Of a DNA stretch of 64,000 nt, positions 22,955 through 36,343 are shown piece after piece; the first letter of the stretch is position 1, and each line of letters begins with the position of its first letter. Made by a program: the position numbers and the translations under genes. The stretch lies in the NCBI GenBank assembly GCA_947371755.1, contig CANBQT010000004.1:36810-100809 (forward strand), written 5' to 3'. Origin of the DNA: Chitinophagaceae bacterium (lineage in GTDB: Bacteria > Bacteroidota > Bacteroidia > Chitinophagales > Chitinophagaceae). A model generated the notes under the pieces. That model did not search any database. It saw only the letters and a program-made list of their open reading frames with translations, and was not told where the DNA came from.

Positions 22955-22971
22955 TTATTAGTCTACCAAAT
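22955..22971 (+). promoter_or_regulatory. Candidate regulator site TTATTAGTCTACCAAAT upstream of cys leader promoter
   Basis: Identical 17-mer in inverted orientation at 33423-33439. Confidence 0.55.
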
Positions 22972-22985
22972 AAATAGGAATATTT

Positions 22986-23015
22986 TTTGCTATCTCTCTC
23001 GAAATCGTATATTTG
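22986..23015 (+). promoter_or_regulatory. Bacteroidota-type promoter (-33 TTTG, 18-nt spacer, -7 TATATTTG)
   Basis: TTTG at 22986-22989, TATATTTG at 23008-23015, upstream of Cys leader ORF. Confidence 0.65.
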
Positions 23016-23043
23016 TACACCGATTAAGTAGACTATTACGAGT

Positions 23044-23106
23044 ATGAAACGATTTTCGCATAATACACCCATGTCTTTCTGTTGCAAAAGCAAATGTTGC
23101 TGTTAA
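23044..23106 (+). CDS. Putative cysteine leader peptide MKRFSHNTPMSFCCKSKCCC
   Basis: ATG...TGT TGC AAA AGC AAA TGT TGC TGT TAA; 5 Cys in the last 8 residues; 46 nt before cysH. Confidence 0.7.
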   Translation: MKRFSHNTPMSFCCKSKCCC

Positions 23107-23152
23107 TCCTAACAGTACTCTACATTGCTTACCATCTTAACAACAGAATTAA

Positions 23153-23869
23153 ATGAACAACTCCTTGAATCAAAACATACAAGATCTCCAGAATAAACTT
23201 ACTGAGTCTCAGCCATGGAATTTTTTGAAGGATCTATCAAGAGACTATGCGGGCAGAATTGTGTTTTCTTCAAGTTTCAGCTATGAAGACCAGGTGATTA
23301 CCCATTTAATTGCTCATCAACAATTGCCGATACAAATTTTTACGTTAGATACAGGAAGATTATTTGCAGAAACCTATAGTGTTTGGAGTAGTACTTTAGA
23401 ACGTTATAAAATATCTATCAAAGCATTTTACCCTGATCAATCCCGGCTGGAATCATTCGTAGAAAAAAATGGGCCCAATGCTTTTTATGAATCCGTTGAT
23501 AAAAGAAAGGATTGCTGTTTTATTCGTAAAGTAGAGCCCTTGAAACGAGCTTTATTAGGGAATGCCATTTGGGTTACTGGATTACGTGCCGAGCACTCTA
23601 CAGAACGTCAGGACCTTCAATCTATCGAATGGGATGAGAGCAATCAAATAATAAAGTATCACCCCCTTTTGCACTGGACTACCGAAGAGGTAACTGACTT
23701 TATAAAATCAAATAATATTCCATATAATCCTTTACACGATAAAGGATTTGTTAGCATTGGTTGTGCTCCTTGTACCAGGGCAATCAAATCAGGTGAGGAT
23801 TTCCGAGCTGGCCGTTGGTGGTGGGAGGATGCAAACAAAAAAGAATGTGGTTTACACGTGCATCAATAA
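23153..23869 (+). CDS. cysH: Phosphoadenylyl/adenylyl-sulfate reductase (likely Fe-S APS reductase)
   Basis: SSFSYEDQVITHLI, KDCCFIRKVEPL (CC) and GCAPCTRAI (CxxC). Confidence 0.92.
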   Translation: MNNSLNQNIQDLQNKLTESQPWNFLKDLSRDYAGRIVFSSSFSYEDQVITHLIAHQQLPIQIFTLDTGRLFAETYSVWSSTLERYKISIKAFYPDQSRLESFVEKNGPNAFYESVDKRKDCCFIRKVEPLKRALLGNAIWVTGLRAEHSTERQDLQSIEWDESNQIIKYHPLLHWTTEEVTDFIKSNNIPYNPLHDKGFVSIGCAPCTRAIKSGEDFRAGRWWWEDANKKECGLHVHQ

Positions 23870-23914: not shown

Positions 23915-24823
23915 ATGAGTAAGTATCAATTAAATTATTTGGATCAGTTAGAATCTGAGTCTATTCACATCATGAGAGAAGTTGCAGGTCAGTTCGAACG
24001 TCCTGCATTACTATTCAGTGGTGGAAAGGATTCTATTGTGCTAGTGCATTTGGCTTTAAAAGCATTTCGTCCGGGGAAATTTCCTTTCCCTTTAGTGCAT
24101 ATCGATACTGGTCATAATTTTCAGGAAGCACTTGATTATCGAGACGCTCTAGCGGAGAGAATTGGAGAAAAACTAATCGTTCGTCAAGTTGCAGATACCA
24201 TTAAAGCAAAAAACTTAACAGAGCCCAAAGGAAAATTTGCAAGTAGAAATGCATTACAAACTTATACGCTGTTAGATACCATAGAAGAGTTCAAGTTTGA
24301 TGCTTGTATTGGTGGAGCAAGAAGAGACGAAGAAAAAGCAAGGGCAAAAGAGCGCATATTTTCTGTGAGAGATGAATTTGGACAATGGAACCCAAAATTG
24401 CAAAGACCAGAATTGTGGGATACTTATAATGGAAGAATTGACAAAGGTGAGAATGTAAGAGTATTTCCTATTAGTAACTGGACTGAATTGGATATTTGGA
24501 ATTATATCAGAAAAGAGAATATTGAATTACCTTCTATATATTTTTCTCACGAAAGAGAAGTGTTGGAACACGAAGGCCAATTAGTGGCAGTATCTGAATT
24601 TGTTCAGATAGAAACCACAGATACAGTGTCTATAAAAAGGGTTCGTTATCGCACTGTGGGTGATATGACCTGTACTGCAGCAGTTGAAAGTAGCGCAAAT
24701 ACAATAGACGATATTATCTCAGAAATCATTGCTACAAAAACCAGTGAGCGAGGGGAAACAAGAATTGATGATCGTGTGAGTGAAGCGGCCATGGAAGACC
24801 GGAAAAAGAATGGATATTTCTAG
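23915..24823 (+). CDS. cysD: Sulfate adenylyltransferase subunit 2
   Basis: LESESIHIMREVAGQFERPALLFSGGKDSIVLVHLALKAF; ends RKKNGYF. Confidence 0.96.
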   Translation: MSKYQLNYLDQLESESIHIMREVAGQFERPALLFSGGKDSIVLVHLALKAFRPGKFPFPLVHIDTGHNFQEALDYRDALAERIGEKLIVRQVADTIKAKNLTEPKGKFASRNALQTYTLLDTIEEFKFDACIGGARRDEEKARAKERIFSVRDEFGQWNPKLQRPELWDTYNGRIDKGENVRVFPISNWTELDIWNYIRKENIELPSIYFSHEREVLEHEGQLVAVSEFVQIETTDTVSIKRVRYRTVGDMTCTAAVESSANTIDDIISEIIATKTSERGETRIDDRVSEAAMEDRKKNGYF

Positions 24824-24854: not shown

Positions 24855-26096
24855 ATGGATATATTAAGATTTATAACAGCAGGCAGTGTAGATGATGGTA
24901 AAAGTACCCTGATTGGCAGATTATTGTATGATAGTAAGTCGATCTTAATTGATCAACTGGAAGCTATAGAAAAGCAGACAAAGAATAGAGAAGATGGTGA
25001 GATCGATCTTGCCTTATTAACTGATGGGTTACGTGCAGAGAGAGAACAAGGGATTACTATTGACGTAGCGTATAAATATTTTACCACACCCAAGCGAAAG
25101 TTTATCATCGCAGATGCACCAGGTCATATTCAGTACACTCGTAATATGGTTACAGGCGCTTCAAACTCTGATTTGGCAATCATCTTAATCGATGCCAGGC
25201 ATGGGGTGGTTGAACAAACCAGAAGACATTCCATTATTGCATCACTGTTAAATATACCCCATGTAGTGGTTGCCGTAAACAAAATGGATCTGGTAGAATA
25301 TTCGCATGATGTTTACAATAACATTTTGATTGATTATGCAGCAGTTGCAAAATCACTGGGATTAAAGGATGTCAGGTATATACCAATCAGTGCATTGAAT
25401 GGCGACAATATTGTAGATAGGTCTACCAAGATGGACTGGTATGAAGGTGAGGGACTTTTGCAAATTTTAGAAACTGTTGTTGTAACAGATGATATCAATT
25501 TAACAGATGCACGTTTTCCAGTGCAGTATGTAATTCGTCCGCAAACTGAAGCATTGCACGACTATCGCGGATATGCGGGAAAAGTAATTAGTGGAATTTA
25601 TAAAAAAGGAGACTCTGTTACCGTGCAGCCTTCTGGTTTAACAACTACAATCTCTGCCATTGAGGTAAGTGGAATAGAAGTTGAAGAAGCTTTCGCTCCA
25701 CAAAGTGCCATATTACATTTAACAGATGATGTAGATGTAAGTAGAGGCGACTTAATTACATTAACTGAAAATCAACCTTCTGTTTCAAATGAATTGGAGG
25801 TTTTATTGTGTTGGATGGATCATAAACCATTGGTGGCTGGAAATAAATATCAATTGCAGATTAATAGCCGACTCGTAAGAGCGGTGGTTAAAGAGTTTCA
25901 ATATAAAGTGAATGTAAATTCATTGGAGCAAGAATCCGCACCAGAAAAAGTTCAACTGAATGATATTATCAAAGCAACAATAAAAACGGCTTCTCCGATC
26001 CCATACGATTCTTACCAACATCTAAGAGTAAATGGCGGTGCAATTTTGATAGACGAAACTAGTCATGTTACAGTTGGAGCTTGCATGATTCAATAA
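24855..26096 (+). CDS. cysN: Sulfate adenylyltransferase subunit 1 (GTPase), no CysC fusion
   Basis: ITAGSVDDGKSTLIGRLLYDSK, DAPGHIQYTRNMVTGAS, NKMDLV; 413 aa only. Confidence 0.95.
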   Translation: MDILRFITAGSVDDGKSTLIGRLLYDSKSILIDQLEAIEKQTKNREDGEIDLALLTDGLRAEREQGITIDVAYKYFTTPKRKFIIADAPGHIQYTRNMVTGASNSDLAIILIDARHGVVEQTRRHSIIASLLNIPHVVVAVNKMDLVEYSHDVYNNILIDYAAVAKSLGLKDVRYIPISALNGDNIVDRSTKMDWYEGEGLLQILETVVVTDDINLTDARFPVQYVIRPQTEALHDYRGYAGKVISGIYKKGDSVTVQPSGLTTTISAIEVSGIEVEEAFAPQSAILHLTDDVDVSRGDLITLTENQPSVSNELEVLLCWMDHKPLVAGNKYQLQINSRLVRAVVKEFQYKVNVNSLEQESAPEKVQLNDIIKATIKTASPIPYDSYQHLRVNGGAILIDETSHVTVGACMIQ

Positions 26097-26103
26097 ATTA
26101 AAT

Positions 26104-26937
26104 ATGACACAGAAAGAATTTATAAATAATCTGTTTAATCAGAATTCAAAGAATTTCAATTTTTTCCCGGATAAAGAATTGGCAGAAGAATTTATTGATA
26201 AACTCTTCGCTTTTCTTTTTTTACCTAAAACGGTGCGGCATAAACAGGCGGCAGATTTGGAAAAAGAATTTGAATCTTTAAAGAGCCATTTTTCCAGTCT
26301 TGTATACGATGTGATTCCTGATGGCGTAAAAGCTCAAGGTATTGCTGATACTTTTTTTGAAGCAATCCCTGAATTATATCACGGTTTAATCTCCGATGCA
26401 AATACTATTTTAAAATTTGATCCTGCAGCGGTTTCCGTAGAAGAGGTTTTAGTGGCATATCCAGGATTTTATGCAACTGCCATCTATAGGTTATCACATT
26501 TACTTTGGAATCTCAATGTGAAAATTATCCCAAGGATTTTTACGGAATATGCACATGGTAAAACGGGTATCGATATTCATCCTGGAGCTACTATTGGTAA
26601 GTCGTTTTTTATAGATCATGGAACAGGAATTGTAATTGGAGAAACAACGCTTATCGGAGATAATGTAAAAATATACCAGGGTGTTACTTTGGGTGCATTA
26701 AATGTTTCTAAAGATAAAGCCAGTACCAAGAGACATCCAACAATTGAAGACAATGTAATTATTTATTCGGGTGCAACTATTTTGGGTGGCGATACTGTAG
26801 TAGGACATGATAGTGTGATAGGGGGTAATGTTTGGTTAACTTATAGTGTGTTGCCCAATTCTATTGTATATCATAAAAGTGAAGTGGCAGTAAAGGATAA
26901 ATATCCGGATACTGAGGTTTTAAATTTTGTCATTTAA
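26104..26937 (+). CDS. cysE: Serine O-acetyltransferase
   Basis: DIHPGATIGKSFFIDHGTGIVIGETTLIGDNVKIYQGVTLGAL hexapeptide repeats. Confidence 0.93.
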   Translation: MTQKEFINNLFNQNSKNFNFFPDKELAEEFIDKLFAFLFLPKTVRHKQAADLEKEFESLKSHFSSLVYDVIPDGVKAQGIADTFFEAIPELYHGLISDANTILKFDPAAVSVEEVLVAYPGFYATAIYRLSHLLWNLNVKIIPRIFTEYAHGKTGIDIHPGATIGKSFFIDHGTGIVIGETTLIGDNVKIYQGVTLGALNVSKDKASTKRHPTIEDNVIIYSGATILGGDTVVGHDSVIGGNVWLTYSVLPNSIVYHKSEVAVKDKYPDTEVLNFVI

Positions 26938-26955: not shown

Positions 26956-27867
26956 ATGAAAGCAAATAACATTCTCGCAACAATTGGCAATACACCACAT
27001 GTGCGTTTAAATAAATTGTTTGGTTCTAATCACGAAATTTGGATCAAGTTGGAAAAAACCAACCCTGGTGCAAGTATTAAAGATCGTATTGCATTAGCAA
27101 TGATAGAAGATGCGGAAGAAAAGGGAATCATTCATAAAGACAGTATCATTATTGAACCAACCTCTGGCAATACGGGCATTGGTTTGGCATTAGTTGCTGC
27201 AGTAAAAGGGTATAAGATCATTTTAGTGATGCCTGAGAGTATGAGCATTGAACGTAGAAGACTCATGGCCCTATACGGAGCTGAATTTGTATTAACCCCT
27301 CGTGAAAAAGGAATGAAGGGTGCTATTGAAAAAGCAACTGAATTAGTGCAAGCTACACCCAATGCCTGGATGCCTCAACAGTTTGATAATCCAGCTAATA
27401 GTGACATCCATCGCAAAACTACAGCACTGGAAATTATTGCTGATTTCCCTGATGGGTTAGATTATATCATCACTGGTGTAGGTACAGGCGGACATATCAC
27501 TGGTGTAGCTGAAGTTTTGAAAGCTAAATTTCCTAATCTTCAAGTGTTCGCTGTTGAACCTGAATTGTCGCCTGTATTAAGTGGTGGTGCACCCGGACCA
27601 CATCCTTTACAAGGTATTGGAGCGGGTTTTGTTCCTTCAATTTTGAATACAAAAATATTGGATGGCATCATAACAGTTAGTAAGGATGAAGCATATGCAT
27701 ATGCGCAACAAATTGCTAAACAGGAAGGTATTTTAGTAGGTGTTTCAACAGGAGCTTCACTTGCCGCAGTTGCTAAAAAATTAGCTGAGATCCCGGTATC
27801 TTCAAAAGTTTTGACATTCAATTATGATACTGGCGAAAGATATCTTTCAATCGAAGGATTATTTTAA
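26956..27867 (+). CDS. cysK: Cysteine synthase
   Basis: [45 protein letters not shown]. Confidence 0.94.
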
Positions 27868-27896: not shown

Positions 27897-27932
27897 GCGT
27901 ATTCTTTAAACCTACTCAATTAGTAGACTATT

Positions 27933-28769
27933 ATGCATAAAATTGTCAGTTTTGGAAAAGTAATCCTTGCAGGAGCGGGATGTGGTGATCCGGAATTAAT
28001 CACTGTTAAGGCAGCTCGATATTTACAAGAGGCGGATCTGGTAATTACAGACAGACTGGTTAGTAAAGCGATTCTGGACACTTATGTTGCTCCTAATACC
28101 CCCATCATTTATGTTGGGAAACAATGTAAACAAAAAGGCTCAACACCACAGGAAGATATTAATCAGTTATTGGTTGATTATGCAGCGGATTATAAACTGA
28201 TTGTTCGCTTGAAAGGAGGGGATACTGCTTTCTTTTCGAATATATTAGATGAGTTGCATACTTTGAATAATGCTGGAATTAGATATGAAATTATTCCTGG
28301 AATCACCGCTGCTTCAGGAGCGTCTTCATATGCGGGTATTCCATTAACAGCCAGGGGGTATGCAACTTCAGTTCGTTTTTTGACTAGTTATAACGATAAA
28401 GTTCTAGATGAAAATTATTGGAGAGGTCTAGCTCAAACACCCGATACCCTGGTATTTTATATGTCATCCAATACGCTTGATCAACTAGTTGATCAATTAA
28501 GAGCGTATGGAATTTCGAACGATAACAAAATTGCTGTTGTTTCACAGGCAACAACTCACTTTCAACAAGTTCAGATTGGAAGTTTTGATGGTTATGAAAA
28601 TGAATTAAAAGGGAAAATATTTATTTCTCCTTCTTTAGTCATCATTGGAAAAGTAGTAACACTCCACGAATCTTTTAATTGGTATAATAATATAAAAACT
28701 GATGAATACTATTTTAAGCCAGTAGAAGATCTGGTTCAAAATGTATTGCCAAAACAAGCGATATGTTAA
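27933..28769 (+). CDS. cobA: Uroporphyrinogen-III C-methyltransferase (siroheme branch)
   Basis: GKVILAGAGCGDPELITVKAARYLQEADLVITDRLV, VRLKGGDTAFFSN, GITAASGASSYAGIPLTARG. Confidence 0.94.
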   Translation: MHKIVSFGKVILAGAGCGDPELITVKAARYLQEADLVITDRLVSKAILDTYVAPNTPIIYVGKQCKQKGSTPQEDINQLLVDYAADYKLIVRLKGGDTAFFSNILDELHTLNNAGIRYEIIPGITAASGASSYAGIPLTARGYATSVRFLTSYNDKVLDENYWRGLAQTPDTLVFYMSSNTLDQLVDQLRAYGISNDNKIAVVSQATTHFQQVQIGSFDGYENELKGKIFISPSLVIIGKVVTLHESFNWYNNIKTDEYYFKPVEDLVQNVLPKQAIC

Positions 28770-30460
28770 CAGAGGAAAAACACGCATTGATAAAATCCTT
28801 AGTTGATTCTTCAACACAGGAAGAACTGATATGGATCAATGGTTATTTATCAGGGTTAATAAATGATAGGCATAAATTAAGCTATCATTTACATACTGTG
28901 CCCTCAGTCAAAAAATTGACTATTGCATATGGAACTGAGACGGGAAATTCAAAAAAGTTAGCTACAGAATTTGCAGCCAAAGCAAAAAAGAAACAAATTC
29001 AAACTAAGCTGATAGGTTTGGATCAATACAGGTTGAATGATTTGGTGAAAGAAGAGTTGTTTGTAACTGTAATTAGCACTCAGGGAGAAGGGGAACCGCC
29101 TGCAGCAGCACAAAAATTTTACGATCATATTCATCAAAATGGGTTTCAGTTACAAAATCTTCAGTATGCTGTTCTGGCATTAGGCGACAGCTCTTACCCA
29201 CTTTTTTGTAAAACAGGTGAGGATGTAGATCAGCAATTATCAAAACTTGGCGGTAAAAGAATGGTGCCTATTCAAAAATGTGATGTTGATTATGAACTTG
29301 AAGCTGAATCATGGTTTGATAATTTACTACATGGTTTGAATACACACGAACCATCCATAAAGCCTCGTGAAACTAATCCGGCGGTAGTGGCAAAATCCAC
29401 CGGTAAAACAATTTATAAGGGAACTGTACTCAGCCATTTAAATTTAAATGACCGGGGTTCGAATAAAGAAACCTGGCATATCGAAATTGCAGCTGATTCG
29501 CTTGTGTATGAATCAGGTGACTCAATAGGAATTGTTCCAAAAAATAACGAATCAATTGTTGAGGCGATTATCCAAACAGTACAGGCAGATCCCCAGAAAT
29601 TTTTAAGTTATAAATCAGAAACATACACTGTTTATGATCTTCTGAAGCATAAGCTGAATATTTCAAATCTCAGTGAAAAAGTAGTTAAGAGATATGCTGA
29701 AATAACTAATCAAATAATTCCCATAGCTAAGTTTGATTTATTAGAAATTATTAAATCTTATCCAATTCAAACAGAAGATCAATTCATTGAAGTTTTACAA
29801 TGCTTGAATCCACAATCACCAAGATTATATACCGTATCATCTTCACCATTGGCTACTGAGGGTGAAGTGCATATCACAGTAGCCAGAGATGTTTTCTGGA
29901 TTAATCAACAAAAGAAGTATGGTGTATGCTCTGATTATCTGAGTTCGTTTAAAGAAGGTGATGCAATTGAATTCTTTGTTCAAAAAAATAAGCGATTTAA
30001 ACTTCCTTCAGATGATAAAGATATCATTATGATTGGTCCCGGTACAGGCATTGCAGCTTTTCGTGGATTTCTGCAAGAAAGGGAAATAGTGAATGGATCT
30101 GGTAGAAGTTGGCTGTTCTTTGGTGAACAACATTTTGCTTCTGATTTTCTGTATCAGACTGAGATTCAAAACTGGGAAGCAACGGGTACACTAACAAAAG
30201 TGAATGTGGCATTTTCGCGTGATCAAAAAAACAAGATCTATGTGCAAGACCGAATGTTGAGCCATGGTGCAGAATTATTTCAATGGATCAATAATGGTGC
30301 TTATATCTATGTGTGTGGTAAAAAAGATCCTATGAGTGTAGATGTTGAAAAAACATTCATTCAAATTGTACAGCAATACGGAAATAAAACCATAGAAGAA
30401 TCACTAGAATTCATCAATGAATTAAAAGATACGCATCGATACCATAAAGATGTGTATTAA
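28763..30460 (+). CDS. cysJ: Sulfite reductase flavoprotein alpha subunit
   Basis: YGTETGNSKKLATEFA, STQGEGEPPAAAQKFYDHI, SPRLYTVSSSPL, GPGTGIAAFRGFLQER; overlaps cobA by 7 nt. Confidence 0.93.
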   Translation: MLTEEKHALIKSLVDSSTQEELIWINGYLSGLINDRHKLSYHLHTVPSVKKLTIAYGTETGNSKKLATEFAAKAKKKQIQTKLIGLDQYRLNDLVKEELFVTVISTQGEGEPPAAAQKFYDHIHQNGFQLQNLQYAVLALGDSSYPLFCKTGEDVDQQLSKLGGKRMVPIQKCDVDYELEAESWFDNLLHGLNTHEPSIKPRETNPAVVAKSTGKTIYKGTVLSHLNLNDRGSNKETWHIEIAADSLVYESGDSIGIVPKNNESIVEAIIQTVQADPQKFLSYKSETYTVYDLLKHKLNISNLSEKVVKRYAEITNQIIPIAKFDLLEIIKSYPIQTEDQFIEVLQCLNPQSPRLYTVSSSPLATEGEVHITVARDVFWINQQKKYGVCSDYLSSFKEGDAIEFFVQKNKRFKLPSDDKDIIMIGPGTGIAAFRGFLQEREIVNGSGRSWLFFGEQHFASDFLYQTEIQNWEATGTLTKVNVAFSRDQKNKIYVQDRMLSHGAELFQWINNGAYIYVCGKKDPMSVDVEKTFIQIVQQYGNKTIEESLEFINELKDTHRYHKDVY

Positions 30461-30502: not shown

Positions 30503-32179
30503 ATGTCAAAACAGGAGAAGCTATCCGTGATTGAAAGAATTAAAACGGAAAGTAAAGGATTGCGGGGATCTATAGTTGAAAGTTTACAAGATGAATTAAC
30601 TGGATCTATTCGTGAAGACGATCAGGCTGTGATTAAATTCCATGGGATGTATCAACAGGATGATAGAGACCGTAGGGAAGAAAGAGCCGAGAAAAAATTA
30701 GATAGACTGTATAGTTTTATGATTCGGTTGAGATTGGCAGGTGGATTTCTAACACCAGCACAATGGGTAGCAACACATCATATTGCTGGTGAGCATTCTA
30801 CAGGCGTGATTAAAATTACTAGTCGCCAAACAGTTCAGCTACATGGACTAATTAAATCCCATATCAAACCAACGATACAAGCTTTTAATGAGGCCAACCT
30901 AAACTCTATAGCCACTTGTGGAGATATTAATCGTAATGTTTTATGTAGTTCTCATCCAGGAGAATCGCCCATTCATGAACAGATATTCAGGTATGCTGAA
31001 AAAATTAGTGACCTCTTATTACCCAAAACAAATGCCTATTATGAGATCTGGCTTGATGAAGAAAAATTAGTTGATAAAAAAGAGGAGGAGGATCCACTTT
31101 ATCAAGACCGTTATTTGCCTAGAAAATTTAAAATAGCTATTGCCATACCACCCAATAATGATGTGGATGTGTATGCTAATGACCTTGGTTTAATAGCGGT
31201 AATTGAGGATGATGTGTTGAAAGGATTTAATATAGCAATTGGTGGCGGACTTGCCACAACACATGGTAACCCTGAAACCTACGCAAGATTGGCAACAATA
31301 ATCGGCTTTACAGATACTGAAGAAAAAACCCTTTCTGCTATTTATGAAGTCCTAACCATTCAAAGAGATTATGGAAATCGTTCAGATCGGAAATTATCAC
31401 GTTTAAAATATACAGTCGATAAAGTTGGGGTTGCTTGGTTTAAAGAAGAGTTGGAAAGAAGAATTGGATTTAGTTTGGAAGAGGCTCGTCCTGTTAAGAT
31501 GACTTCAAGGGTAGATCATTTTGGCTGGAAACAAAATGCTGCTGGTAAATGGTATTATACTTTGCTGGTAGAAAATGGTAGAATACTTGATACGGAAACT
31601 TTGCCATTAAAAACTGCTTTACATGAAGTGGCTAAAACAGGTAAGGCAAACTTTAGATTTACCTGTACGCAGAATCTAATTTTAAGTGACATCGAAGAAG
31701 CGGATAAAAAGGCAATAGAGCAAATACTAGATGTACATGGGATAACTAAGCATACAGAGAATAGCTCAGCACTCAGGAAAAATAGTATGGCATGTGTGGC
31801 ATTACCAACTTGTCCATTAGCCTTAGCCGAAGCGCAAAGGTATTTTCCGGAATTGATTACTAAACTTGAGCCGATACTTTCAAAATATGGACTGGATGAT
31901 GATGGTATTGTAATACGAATGACTGGTTGTCCTAATGGTTGTGCAAGATCTTATGCAGCAGAAATCGGTTTTATTGGAACCGCGCCCGGCAAATATAACT
32001 TGCATATTGGTGGGGATAGACAGGGTGAAAGACTTAATAAGATATATCGAGAGAGTTTAGAAGAACCGCAGATTCTTCAAGTATTGGATAAGTTGTTTCA
32101 GATTTATTCGAAGGAGAAAATTACGGGTGAAACATTTGGAGATTTTTCAGTACGTAAAGAATGGGTTGTATATGATTAA
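30503..32179 (+). CDS. cysI: Sulfite reductase hemoprotein beta subunit
   Basis: [63 protein letters not shown]. Confidence 0.94.
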
Positions 32180-33422
32180 ATACGCAGAAATATTTTCTCA
32201 AAAACTAGCCGAACTAAAAGATTCAGGAACTTATCGATATTTTCTGAACGTAAACAAATCGGCTCAGCACTTTCCGGTATTTTATTTTGAAGATGCTTAT
32301 GGTGAAAAACGCCGTGCTATAAACTTTTGCAGTAATGATTATTTAGCCATGAGTGTTCATGAAGAAGTAATTAGCAAGTTGGCTTTTGTGGCAAATAGGG
32401 CAGGAGCAGGAAGTGGTGGAACGAGAAATATCAGCGGGTCAACCATCTATCATCGGGAATTAGAAGCATCTATTGCATCATTGCATCAGAAAAATGCAGC
32501 TTTGCTATTTGGTAGTGCTTATCTGGCCAATCTTACAGCATTAAGTGTGATAGGAAAAATTCTTCCGGAGGTTGTTTTTATATCCGATGAAAATAATCAT
32601 GCATCAATTATCGAAGGTATTAAAGCGAGTGGATCTGCAAAAAGAATATTCCCCCATAATGATTTAGATGCATTGGAAAGGATACTAAAAAGTATTCCGG
32701 TTCATCAGCCTAAAGTAATTGTATTTGAATCGGTATACTCCATGAGTGGAACTGATGCGCCAATTGTAGAGATAGTATTGTTGGCAAAAAAATATAATGC
32801 ATTAACTTATATAGATGAAGTTCATGCAGTAGGGATCTATGGCGAACATGGGGGCGGTTTGACAGAGCAGTTAGGTATTCAACATGGTATTGATATTATC
32901 AATGGCACATTAGCAAAAGGATTTGGAGTTTTAGGCGGATATATTGCCGGGGATTCTAATTTTATTGATGCTATTAGAAGTGTAGGTGCAGGTTTTATTT
33001 TCACAACATCCTTGCCTCCAGCCATTTGTGCAGCTGCTACCAGAAGTATTGAGTATTTGAAAAATGATCAAACTATCAGACCTGCATACCACCAGAAGGT
33101 TAGTGAATTAAGAAATTTATTAAAACGGAATAACATTCCATTCTCTGTAAATAGTACGCATATCACCCCTATTCCAATTGGTGATGAAAAAAAGTGTAAG
33201 GAAATCTCAGATGCTTTACTCTACCAACAAGGTATATATATTCAACCAATAGTATTTCCCACTGTTAAAAAAGGAGAAGCCTGCTTACGTATTACAATAA
33301 CAAGTAAGCATGAAAATTCAGAAATGGTTACTTTGGTCCGGGCTTTAAAAATGGTGCTTGAATCATTTAATGTACGAACATATTCAAGTAGTAAAATTTT
33401 AAATAAAAATAATAGTATATAA
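32172..33422 (+). CDS. 5-aminolevulinate synthase-like alpha-oxoamine synthase
   Basis: [94 protein letters not shown]-type rather than KBL/BioF; 8-nt overlap with cysI. Confidence 0.78.
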
Positions 33423-33439
33423 ATTTGGTAGACTAATAA
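33423..33439 (-). promoter_or_regulatory. Candidate regulator site ATTTGGTAGACTAATAA
   Basis: Reverse complement identical to 22955-22971; overlaps putative -33 TTTG. Confidence 0.55.
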
Positions 33440-33476: not shown

Positions 33477-33545
33477 ATGAAGTATACTTATCATATCGGT
33501 TTGACTAATTCCTGCAGGGATTTATTAATTGCCTGCTGTTGTTGA
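33477..33545 (+). CDS. Putative cysteine leader peptide MKYTYHIGLTNSCRDLLIACCC
   Basis: ATG...GCC TGC TGT TGT TGA; terminates in CCC-stop like the peptide before cysH. Confidence 0.68.
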   Translation: MKYTYHIGLTNSCRDLLIACCC

Positions 33546-33727: not shown

Positions 33728-33796
33728 AAGAAAGAACGACTTTTTTTTAAAATAATAGTCTATAAAATTAATAGACAAATAAATCACAACCAATCC

Positions 33797-36343
33797 ATGA
33801 AAAAACTATTATTATTCTTAGTATTGTCTTTGCCAATTTTGGCAATTGCACAATTCTCAGGGCGAATAGTCAATAGTAGCAATGCTGCTATATCTAATGC
33901 AAATGTTTCCATTAAAGGAAGCTCCATCACTTCTACCACTGACGCTGATGGGAAGTTTCATTTTTCAAAGATTCAACAATACCCTTTTACATTGGTGGTT
34001 TCTCATATGGGTTTTGAGAAGTTAGAAAAGCTAATAAAAGACAACAATATCAATAACGTTTCATTAGAACTACAGGTATCTTACCAAAGAGATAGCATTG
34101 TTGTAACATCACGCAGAAGAAAAGAAGTGTTGCAGGAAGTTCCTCTATCAGTTTCTGTAATAGGAGGGGCAAAAGTTGAAGAGTCTGGTTCATTTAACGT
34201 GAACAGGGTTAAGGAGTTTGTGCCTTCATTACAATTATATACCTCAAACCCGAGAAATACTGGAATCAATATACGTGGACTTGGTTCTCCATTTGGACTT
34301 ACCAACGATGGCTTAGATCCTGGTGTAGGGTTTTATGTAGATGGGGTATATTACGCAAGGCCTGCAGCTGCTACGCTTGATTTTATAGATTTAGAAAGAA
34401 TAGAGGTTTTGCGTGGTCCTCAGGGAACTTTATTTGGCAAAAACACAGCCGCAGGTGCAATTAATATCACTACAAAAAAACCTAGCTTCAAAAGTGCTTC
34501 AAATTTTGAATTGAGCACTGGTAATTATGGTTATATCCAGGGGAAAATTTCTGTGACTGGTGCAATTAGTAAGAAATTAGCTACAAGAGTTTCTGTAACT
34601 GGTACACAAAGAGATGGAGTCATTGATAATGTACGTACTCACACAAAAACAAATAGCCTCAGTAATTTCGGATTCCACGGCCAATTATTATATCAAGTAA
34701 CTGATAAAACTACTGTTACTTTTTCAGGAGATGCGGCCATTCAACGTCCTGATGGATATGCCCAAGTGATTGCAGGGGTAGTTCAAACAAAACGTGCTGC
34801 TTATCGTCAATTCAATGCCATTATAAAAGATCTGAATTATTCTTTACCAAGTCAAAATGCATTTGATCGTTTGATTGATCACGATACTCCCTGGAAATCT
34901 GATAATGATATTGGTGGAGCCTCAGTGAATGTTGATTCAAAAATAGGATCAGGCACTTTTACATCAACTACCGCTTGGCGTTATTGGAATTGGGGGCCTT
35001 CAAATGATAGAGATTTTACTGGTTTGCAGGCTTTGGCAAAATCACAAAATCCTGCGAAGCACCAACAATGGTCACAAGAATTTCGCTATTCTGGTGAATT
35101 GTCATCAAATGTAAGTGCAGTTGTTGGACTATTCGGTATTGGACAGGAAGTTAAAATTGATGGACTCGAAGAGTCCGGAAAAGATCAGTGGCGTTTTGTT
35201 CAAAGTTCTACCAGTGCACTTTGGAAAACTCCAGGGTTATTTGAAGGATACGGCATAAAAACAAAGGCATCACTTAATTCTGTGAGTGCAGCAGCATTTA
35301 CAAATATTGATTGGGAAATTGTAAAAGGGTTGCATGTATTGCCAGGACTACGTTTCAATTATGATAAAAAAGATGTTGATTATAATCGTATTGCCTCCGG
35401 TGGTTTGCAAACAACTAATACTGCTTTAATTGCATTAAAGAATTCGGTTTATACCAGCCAGTCATATCTTGCCAGTAAGGAAGAAAATAACTTAACGTAT
35501 CAACTTACCTTATCTTATAGACCTTCAACTAAAATTAATGCCTTCGCAACTTATTCAACCAGTTTTAAACCTTCTGGGGTAAATATTGCAGGGTTGCCAA
35601 CCAATCCAGATAATTCCGCAGCAACAGACCTTGCAGTGATCAAGCCTGAGTATACTAAACATTTTGAAATTGGTTTAAAAACTACACCTGCAAAAAACGT
35701 AACATTGAATTTTGCTTTTTATAATTCTGATATTACAGATTATCAAACAAATGTTCAGTCACCACAGTTGGGTGTAAACAGAGGATATATTGCAACTGCT
35801 GAAAAAGTGAAAGTGCAGGGTTTTGAATTTGATGGCAATATGGATATTCAGAGAAATTTTTCTCTCTTCGCTTCTGTAGCGTATACAGATGGTAAATATG
35901 TAAGCTTTAAGAATGCGCCACTTCCATTAGAAGAAACCGGTACAACACAAGGAGGAGTTCAGGTTGCTTTCAAAGACGTTTCAGGTGCTCAACTTCCTGG
36001 TATTTCTAAATGGGCAGGGACTATTGGTGCTGAGTATAATTTTCCTGCTGTATTTTTTGGTAAGGCGGGCAAATTATTTATTGCTTCAGAAGCTTACTAT
36101 CGTTCTTCATTCTCGTCTAGTCCATCTCCTTCTGCTTATTTAAATATTGAGGGCTATACATTAGTCAATACAAGAGTTGGATTCAAAGTAACCAATGGTT
36201 TATCTTTTTATATATGGGGAAGAAATATTTTTAATCAAAACTATTATGAACAATTATTAGTGGCAGGAGGTAATGCCGGTCAATATGCGGGCGTTTTAGG
36301 TGATCCTCGAACTTATGGAGTAACGTTAAAGTTTTCTCTTTAG
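33797..36343 (+). CDS. TonB-dependent outer-membrane receptor with carboxypeptidase-like N-terminal domain; no SusD partner
   Basis: Signal peptide, CarboxypepD-like SGRIVNSSNAAISNANVSIKGS, plug FVDGVYYARPAA...LERIEVLRGPQGTLFGKNTAAGAINITTKKP, C-terminal beta strand YGVTLKFSL. Confidence 0.93.
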   Translation: MKKLLLFLVLSLPILAIAQFSGRIVNSSNAAISNANVSIKGSSITSTTDADGKFHFSKIQQYPFTLVVSHMGFEKLEKLIKDNNINNVSLELQVSYQRDSIVVTSRRRKEVLQEVPLSVSVIGGAKVEESGSFNVNRVKEFVPSLQLYTSNPRNTGINIRGLGSPFGLTNDGLDPGVGFYVDGVYYARPAAATLDFIDLERIEVLRGPQGTLFGKNTAAGAINITTKKPSFKSASNFELSTGNYGYIQGKISVTGAISKKLATRVSVTGTQRDGVIDNVRTHTKTNSLSNFGFHGQLLYQVTDKTTVTFSGDAAIQRPDGYAQVIAGVVQTKRAAYRQFNAIIKDLNYSLPSQNAFDRLIDHDTPWKSDNDIGGASVNVDSKIGSGTFTSTTAWRYWNWGPSNDRDFTGLQALAKSQNPAKHQQWSQEFRYSGELSSNVSAVVGLFGIGQEVKIDGLEESGKDQWRFVQSSTSALWKTPGLFEGYGIKTKASLNSVSAAAFTNIDWEIVKGLHVLPGLRFNYDKKDVDYNRIASGGLQTTNTALIALKNSVYTSQSYLASKEENNLTYQLTLSYRPSTKINAFATYSTSFKPSGVNIAGLPTNPDNSAATDLAVIKPEYTKHFEIGLKTTPAKNVTLNFAFYNSDITDYQTNVQSPQLGVNRGYIATAEKVKVQGFEFDGNMDIQRNFSLFASVAYTDGKYVSFKNAPLPLEETGTTQGGVQVAFKDVSGAQLPGISKWAGTIGAEYNFPAVFFGKAGKLFIASEAYYRSSFSSSPSPSAYLNIEGYTLVNTRVGFKVTNGLSFYIWGRNIFNQNYYEQLLVAGGNAGQYAGVLGDPRTYGVTLKFSL

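Follow-up and report, generated by a model that had tools for sequence, protein, structure and literature searches.

A conserved poly-cysteine leader ORF ahead of the cysH operon in Chitinophagaceae, a candidate translation-based cysteine sensor

The window analysed here is a stretch of 64,000 nucleotides from a Chitinophagaceae bacterium, and it carries on the forward strand an operon that begins with a short leader ORF. The genes that follow the leader are, in order, cysH (adenylyl-/phosphoadenylyl-sulfate reductase, 23153–23869), cysD (23915–24823), cysN (24855–26096), a cysE-like serine O-acetyltransferase gene (26104–26937) scoring above the NF041874 cut-off and below that of TIGR01172, cysK (26956–27867), a uroporphyrinogen-III C-methyltransferase (siroheme methyltransferase) gene of the cobA/cysG type (27933–28769), a cysJ-like flavoprotein gene (28763–30460) whose top NCBIfam match is cysJ, at a score under the cut-off, and cysI (sulfite reductase hemoprotein, 30503–32179). 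A 5-aminolevulinate synthase-like gene that exceeds the TIGR01821 cut-off follows cysI at 32127–33422, overlaps it by 53 nt provided that its GTG start is correct, and is possibly tied to siroheme supply.

The leader ORF runs on the forward strand from the ATG at 23044 to the TAA at 23104–23106 and encodes, in 20 codons, MKRFSHNTPMSFCCKSKCCC*, with Cys at five of the final eight codons. A first Cys-Cys codon pair, TGT TGC (23080–23085), is invariant in near relatives, and a terminal run, TGT TGC TGT (23095–23103), abuts the stop codon, which is separated from the cysH ATG (23153) by 46 nt. Upstream, TTTG at 22986–22989 is followed after 18 nt by TATATTTG at 23008–23015 and after a further 28 nt by the leader ATG; this predicted forward-strand element (22986–23015) is presumably a promoter of the Bacteroidota type. 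An initial annotation of this DNA had reported the ORF, its Cys count, the promoter spacing and the distance to cysH, and all of these were exact on re-reading. The motif TGYTGYTGYTRA occurs 30 times in the 3.37 Mb genome, and only two of these sites, both in the window, belong to an ATG-started intergenic ORF with a same-strand gene no more than 300 nt on. A plain poly-Cys DNA pattern was dropped as a genome-wide leader detector because its background was too high.

Relatives of cysH were sampled from the genus, family, order and class of the window and from a set of named genomes, and 223 distinct upstream regions were read and scored against dinucleotide shuffles and the reverse strand. A short ORF with at least three Cys in eight codons was found in 81 of the 223 regions (shuffles 11.5, reverse strand 5), and one with at least five in 42 (shuffles 0.05, reverse strand 0), the regions being related to one another so that these counts are not independent events. 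At the intermediate threshold of at least four Cys in eight codons, the comparative look for Cys-ended short ORFs before cysH that the initial annotation had proposed gave 64 of the 223 regions, against 1.25 in shuffles and none on the reverse strand. Its view that a Cys run at the head of this operon exceeds chance is borne out by the shuffles, the reverse strand and the survey of TGYTGYTGYTRA in the genome itself. It had also made its sensor reading, which specified no mechanism downstream of the ribosome, depend on relatives keeping the Cys codons and the reading frame. The comparison supports this reading: many genera do keep the frame, the Cys tract, the adjacent stop and the place before cysH, while the remaining peptide diverges.

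Within Chitinophagaceae, 74 regions have 100 nt or more of intergenic space, and 39 of them pass the four-Cys test. Leader-positive loci cover 27 genera of this family (our own count of loci) and at least four other families, the positives outside Chitinophagaceae being L204, L208–L210, L236–L237, the Rufibacter loci L080 and L083, and L223. At L223, where cysH is internal, the leader ORF again stands before the first cys gene, here that of the siroheme methyltransferase; it touches the border of the locus, which makes its start uncertain. The leader is rare in the class-wide sample and was not found in the Chryseobacterium cysH loci examined.

The leader peptides vary nearly everywhere except in the Cys codons packed at the stop. 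Cys accounts for 77, 83 and 91% of residues at positions −1, −2 and −3 before the stop codon, a second cluster lies at −7 and −8 (44 and 55%), and the last Cys falls 0–2 residues before the stop in all 60 leaders examined. Both Cys codons (TGT and TGC) occur, as does each of the three stop codons. The spacer to the next gene has a median of about 58 nt and, read by eye, many leaders have their ATG 20-odd nt after a TAnnTTTG-like promoter. In the Ferruginibacter-like loci L048, L050, L051, L057, L059, L064 and L193 the spacer between leader and cysH, TTTTGGCTAAATTTTTTGCAGACT, is strongly conserved; in models of L051 and L057 the cysH start is masked more strongly in the free RNA than in shuffles, and becomes free once a ribosome occupies the stop codon.

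This anatomy bears on the idea that the peptide itself is the product, either as a small peptide that binds thiols or metals or as a nascent chain that stalls on metal or thiol stress instead of Cys-tRNA shortage. The Cys-rich C-terminus would suit such a role, and PMC9973294 gives a precedent from another phylum, a nascent exported protein with copper-dependent control of translation. The peptides nevertheless range from 8 to 38 residues from the first Met with Cys alone conserved, the Cys run lies so close to the stop codon that most of it would still be inside the ribosome, and the genes after the leader make cysteine, all of which renders a peptide product quite improbable. The conservation of Cys-rich mini-genes at the same place in many related Bacteroidota strongly suggests a translation-based cysteine sensor, a kind of device known until now chiefly from mycobacteria. 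By analogy with amino-acid leaders whose function has been demonstrated, the Cys codons are read as sensors of Cys-tRNA, and it is very likely that the ORF at 23044–23106 acts in this way.

The window leader has two of the features by which a polycysteine leader is recognised, namely contiguous Cys codons in a short ORF upstream of cysteine genes and conservation across related genomes. Two papers that cite Canestrari 2020 (doi 10.1111/mmi.14498), PMC13236596 and PMC9031893, describe the polycysteine leaderless short ORFs of mycobacteria as a cysteine-responsive attenuator acting on downstream translation. As portrayed there, these ORFs resemble the window leader in being short and in placing a run of adjoining Cys codons before cysteine genes, and differ in being leaderless and actinobacterial, whereas the Bacteroidota leader would have an untranslated 5′ stretch of about 20–28 nt; the downstream genes also differ, a proposed palindromic operator adjoins the window leader, and sequence homology is not evident. 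Since 28 nt separate the promoter-like element from the ATG, the start is, by sequence, not leaderless, and the window leader was not classed with the mycobacterial leaderless type. By analogy it is nonetheless functionally the same kind of device, apparently of independent origin in Bacteroidota. Cys leaders predicted in Mycobacterium, Propionibacterium acnes and ahead of Bifidobacterium longum cbs (Seliverstov 2005, PMC1262725) likewise have Cys runs near the stop, no terminator hairpin and a polypyrimidine spacer; they belong to a different phylum, and a start-masking stem was not reported there. In Rhodobacterales the uORFC-8-2 motif, a uORF whose tandem Cys codons are believed to gauge Cys-tRNA, stands before cysS and closes with an intrinsic terminator (PMC8632094), neither of which is true of the window leader. 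In the same phylum as the window, leader-peptide attenuators have been suggested before amino-acid biosynthesis operons of Flavobacterium psychrophilum, the main-text passages of that paper naming no cysteine leader (PMC9723704). No description of a cysteine leader from Bacteroidota turned up in our literature search, which covered few subscription journals.

Between promoter and leader ATG, over the expected transcription start, lies a palindrome, TACACCGATTAAGTAGA (23016–23032), which is proposed as an operator, and similar palindromes are likewise placed in other genomes. A second copy, TCTACCAAATAAATAGG (22962–22978), stands upstream of the promoter, and further TCTAY-N7-RTAGA-like palindromes near the cys operon and the TonB-dependent receptor described below are found at 27911–27927, 33416–33432 and 33759–33775; the five likely form an operator set, judging by their sequences. 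A palindrome near TCTAC-N7-GTAGA was seen by eye between promoter and leader ATG in many leaders, and a relaxed form of the pattern occurs in 23 of 64 leader regions versus none of the equal-sized regions further upstream. A combined operator-plus-leader pattern gave 25 matches, about half of them cysH leaders; it was dropped as a leader detector, the remaining matches being near the reversed-pattern background. The genome has two Rrf2 genes, and an Rrf2-family regulator with the Cys cluster PCVSLNFYKKCKDCDEKKC, at 1501–1905 of its locus L190, is a candidate to bind the palindromes. In L187, L189 and L249 the sequence directly before cysH also encodes an Rrf2-like C-terminus, and it is from this gene neighbourhood that we guess at Rrf2 as the binder. 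The presence of a palindrome at the expected start site in this and other genomes, together with these Rrf2 genes, would fit an account in which the operon is regulated solely through that palindrome as an operator, with an Rrf2-family repressor as its possible binder, and the ORF is a passenger. If the ORF were a passenger, however, its Cys codons, its frame and its stop would not be preserved from genus to genus, and an operator layer and a leader layer are compatible with one another, so that regulation by the operator alone is the most improbable of the accounts weighed here.

A second poly-Cys leader ORF, MKYTYHIGLTNSCRDLLIACCC*, is present in the window at 33477–33545 on the forward strand, 251 nt ahead of a gene for a TonB-dependent receptor (33797–36343, forward strand). 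Ahead of orthologues of this receptor we read MRFANLRRSTNCSSVLFRCCCC, a frame ending in CCCCCCC, and MNWLLLQNHYHSLYGRCCCCNSTC. At least three Cys in eight codons precede 13 of 33 orthologues (shuffles 1.3) and at least four precede 5 of them (shuffles 0.05), the palindrome is present in most of the 33 upstream regions, and the receptor gene lies about 10 kb from cysH in several genomes. A further poly-Cys mini-ORF, MYIARFTIHRCCCYCCC, was seen on the reverse strand of L320 (about 1538–1592), after a palindrome-like site and before a gene of the fatty-acid hydroxylase family.

How the signal would reach cysH was considered from the RNA between leader and gene. No intrinsic terminator was found in the window between the leader and cysH, and the device was accordingly not assigned to the classical trp/his type of transcription attenuator. 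Over 64 leaders a weak terminator site occurs in 9 versus 2.6 expected, several of these being the Cys codons read as a T-rich tail, and an Rfam search of 10 loci gave no match at the gathering score.

In the window a stem is proposed between a 5′ arm, UUCUGUUG (23077–23084, forward strand), made of the Phe codon and the first Cys codons, and a 3′ arm, CAACAGAA (23141–23148, forward strand), that ends 4 nt before the cysH ATG. Both arms are kept in the nine nearest relatives while the intervening spacer drifts. In L009, L199 and L006 the arms are CCGUGUUG with AACACG, the two pairs beside the Cys codons changing from C-G and U-A to G-C and C-G, and in L007 they are CCUUGUUG with CAACAA, the pair nearest the Cys codons becoming U-A; the covariation in the genus rests on few independent changes. 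MAFFT moves the 3′ arm in L045, L046 and L011, and the alignment was for this reason not used for pair counts. When a ribosome is modelled on the Cys codons, the start region opens in each of the 13 genus members that have the stem (0.56 to 0.76 unpaired in L001); one genus member with a leader, L008, lacks both the stem and the modelled opening. Beyond the genus, strong pairing is seen in a few loci, L033, L183 and, in another family, L236 and L237, the last two with 11–12 bp of the same pairing. Over 64 leaders, complementarity between Cys tract and spacer is not significantly above that of shuffled spacers (mean z −0.29, p 0.06). Over all leaders, opening upon stalling equals that with shuffled spacers, shuffles that retain the last 20 nt and hence the 3′ arm, and pairs between a Cys tract and its own start region do not beat pairs with the start regions of other leaders (p 0.37). 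These null results indicate that start masking is not general.

The main rival is a Rho-dependent read-out like that of E. coli tna, in which the stalled ribosome would cover the start of the pyrimidine-rich, G-poor spacer and block Rho, whereas with cysteine the ribosome would leave and Rho would end transcription before cysH. That all 60 leaders place their Cys tract against the stop suits this idea, as does the finding of neither an intrinsic terminator nor a general structure, and the same idea has been put forward for the actinobacterial cys leaders (PMC1262725). Leader spacers contain 24% C and 11% G, with C exceeding G in 57 of 60, compared with 17% C, 11% G and a C excess in 71% of cases before other genes; this C excess is modest, genes here generally have little G ahead of them, and the loci compared are related. 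The median spacer is, moreover, short for such a read-out, and the conserved CAACAGAA arm of the genus is left unexplained by it, so that we regard Rho as unlikely, if clearly less so than a peptide product. With a stem that shows compensatory changes in the genus and is not general beyond it, start masking is favoured for the window and its genus, where we give it an even chance; other clades may use another read-out.

According to the start-masking proposal the leader ORF would be translated, and with ample Cys-tRNA the ribosome would reach the stop codon and depart, leaving the Cys codons to pair with CAACAGAA and the cysH start masked. With scarce Cys-tRNA it would stall on the Cys codons, the 5′ arm would stay single-stranded and the cysH start exposed, which would give more translation and hence higher expression of the operon. 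On this reading, stalling at the Cys codons would raise cysH-operon expression, probably at the level of translation. Taken over all the accounts, the best explanation from the sequence comparisons, and a likely one, is that the ORF serves the cysH operon as a leader that senses cysteine.

The finding would extend control by cysteine-codon leaders to Bacteroidota, with strong comparative support. Initiation in this phylum is mostly without Shine-Dalgarno sites, and the leaders would help to show how control by amino-acid leaders operates under such conditions. Ferruginibacter paludis and two Rufibacter strains are among the carriers, which makes the proposal testable in named strains. More tentatively, and with rather less than even probability, many Chitinophagaceae and some other Bacteroidota may possess a two-layer cysteine regulon covering the cysH operons and the TonB-dependent receptor, in which a palindromic, perhaps Rrf2-bound, operator at the start site is combined with poly-Cys leaders whose Cys codons sense Cys-tRNA and mask the next start, in mRNAs generally without Shine-Dalgarno sites. 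The second leader would flag the receptor as part of the cysteine response, and if the two-layer regulon is real the receptor would be an importer of sulfur compounds.
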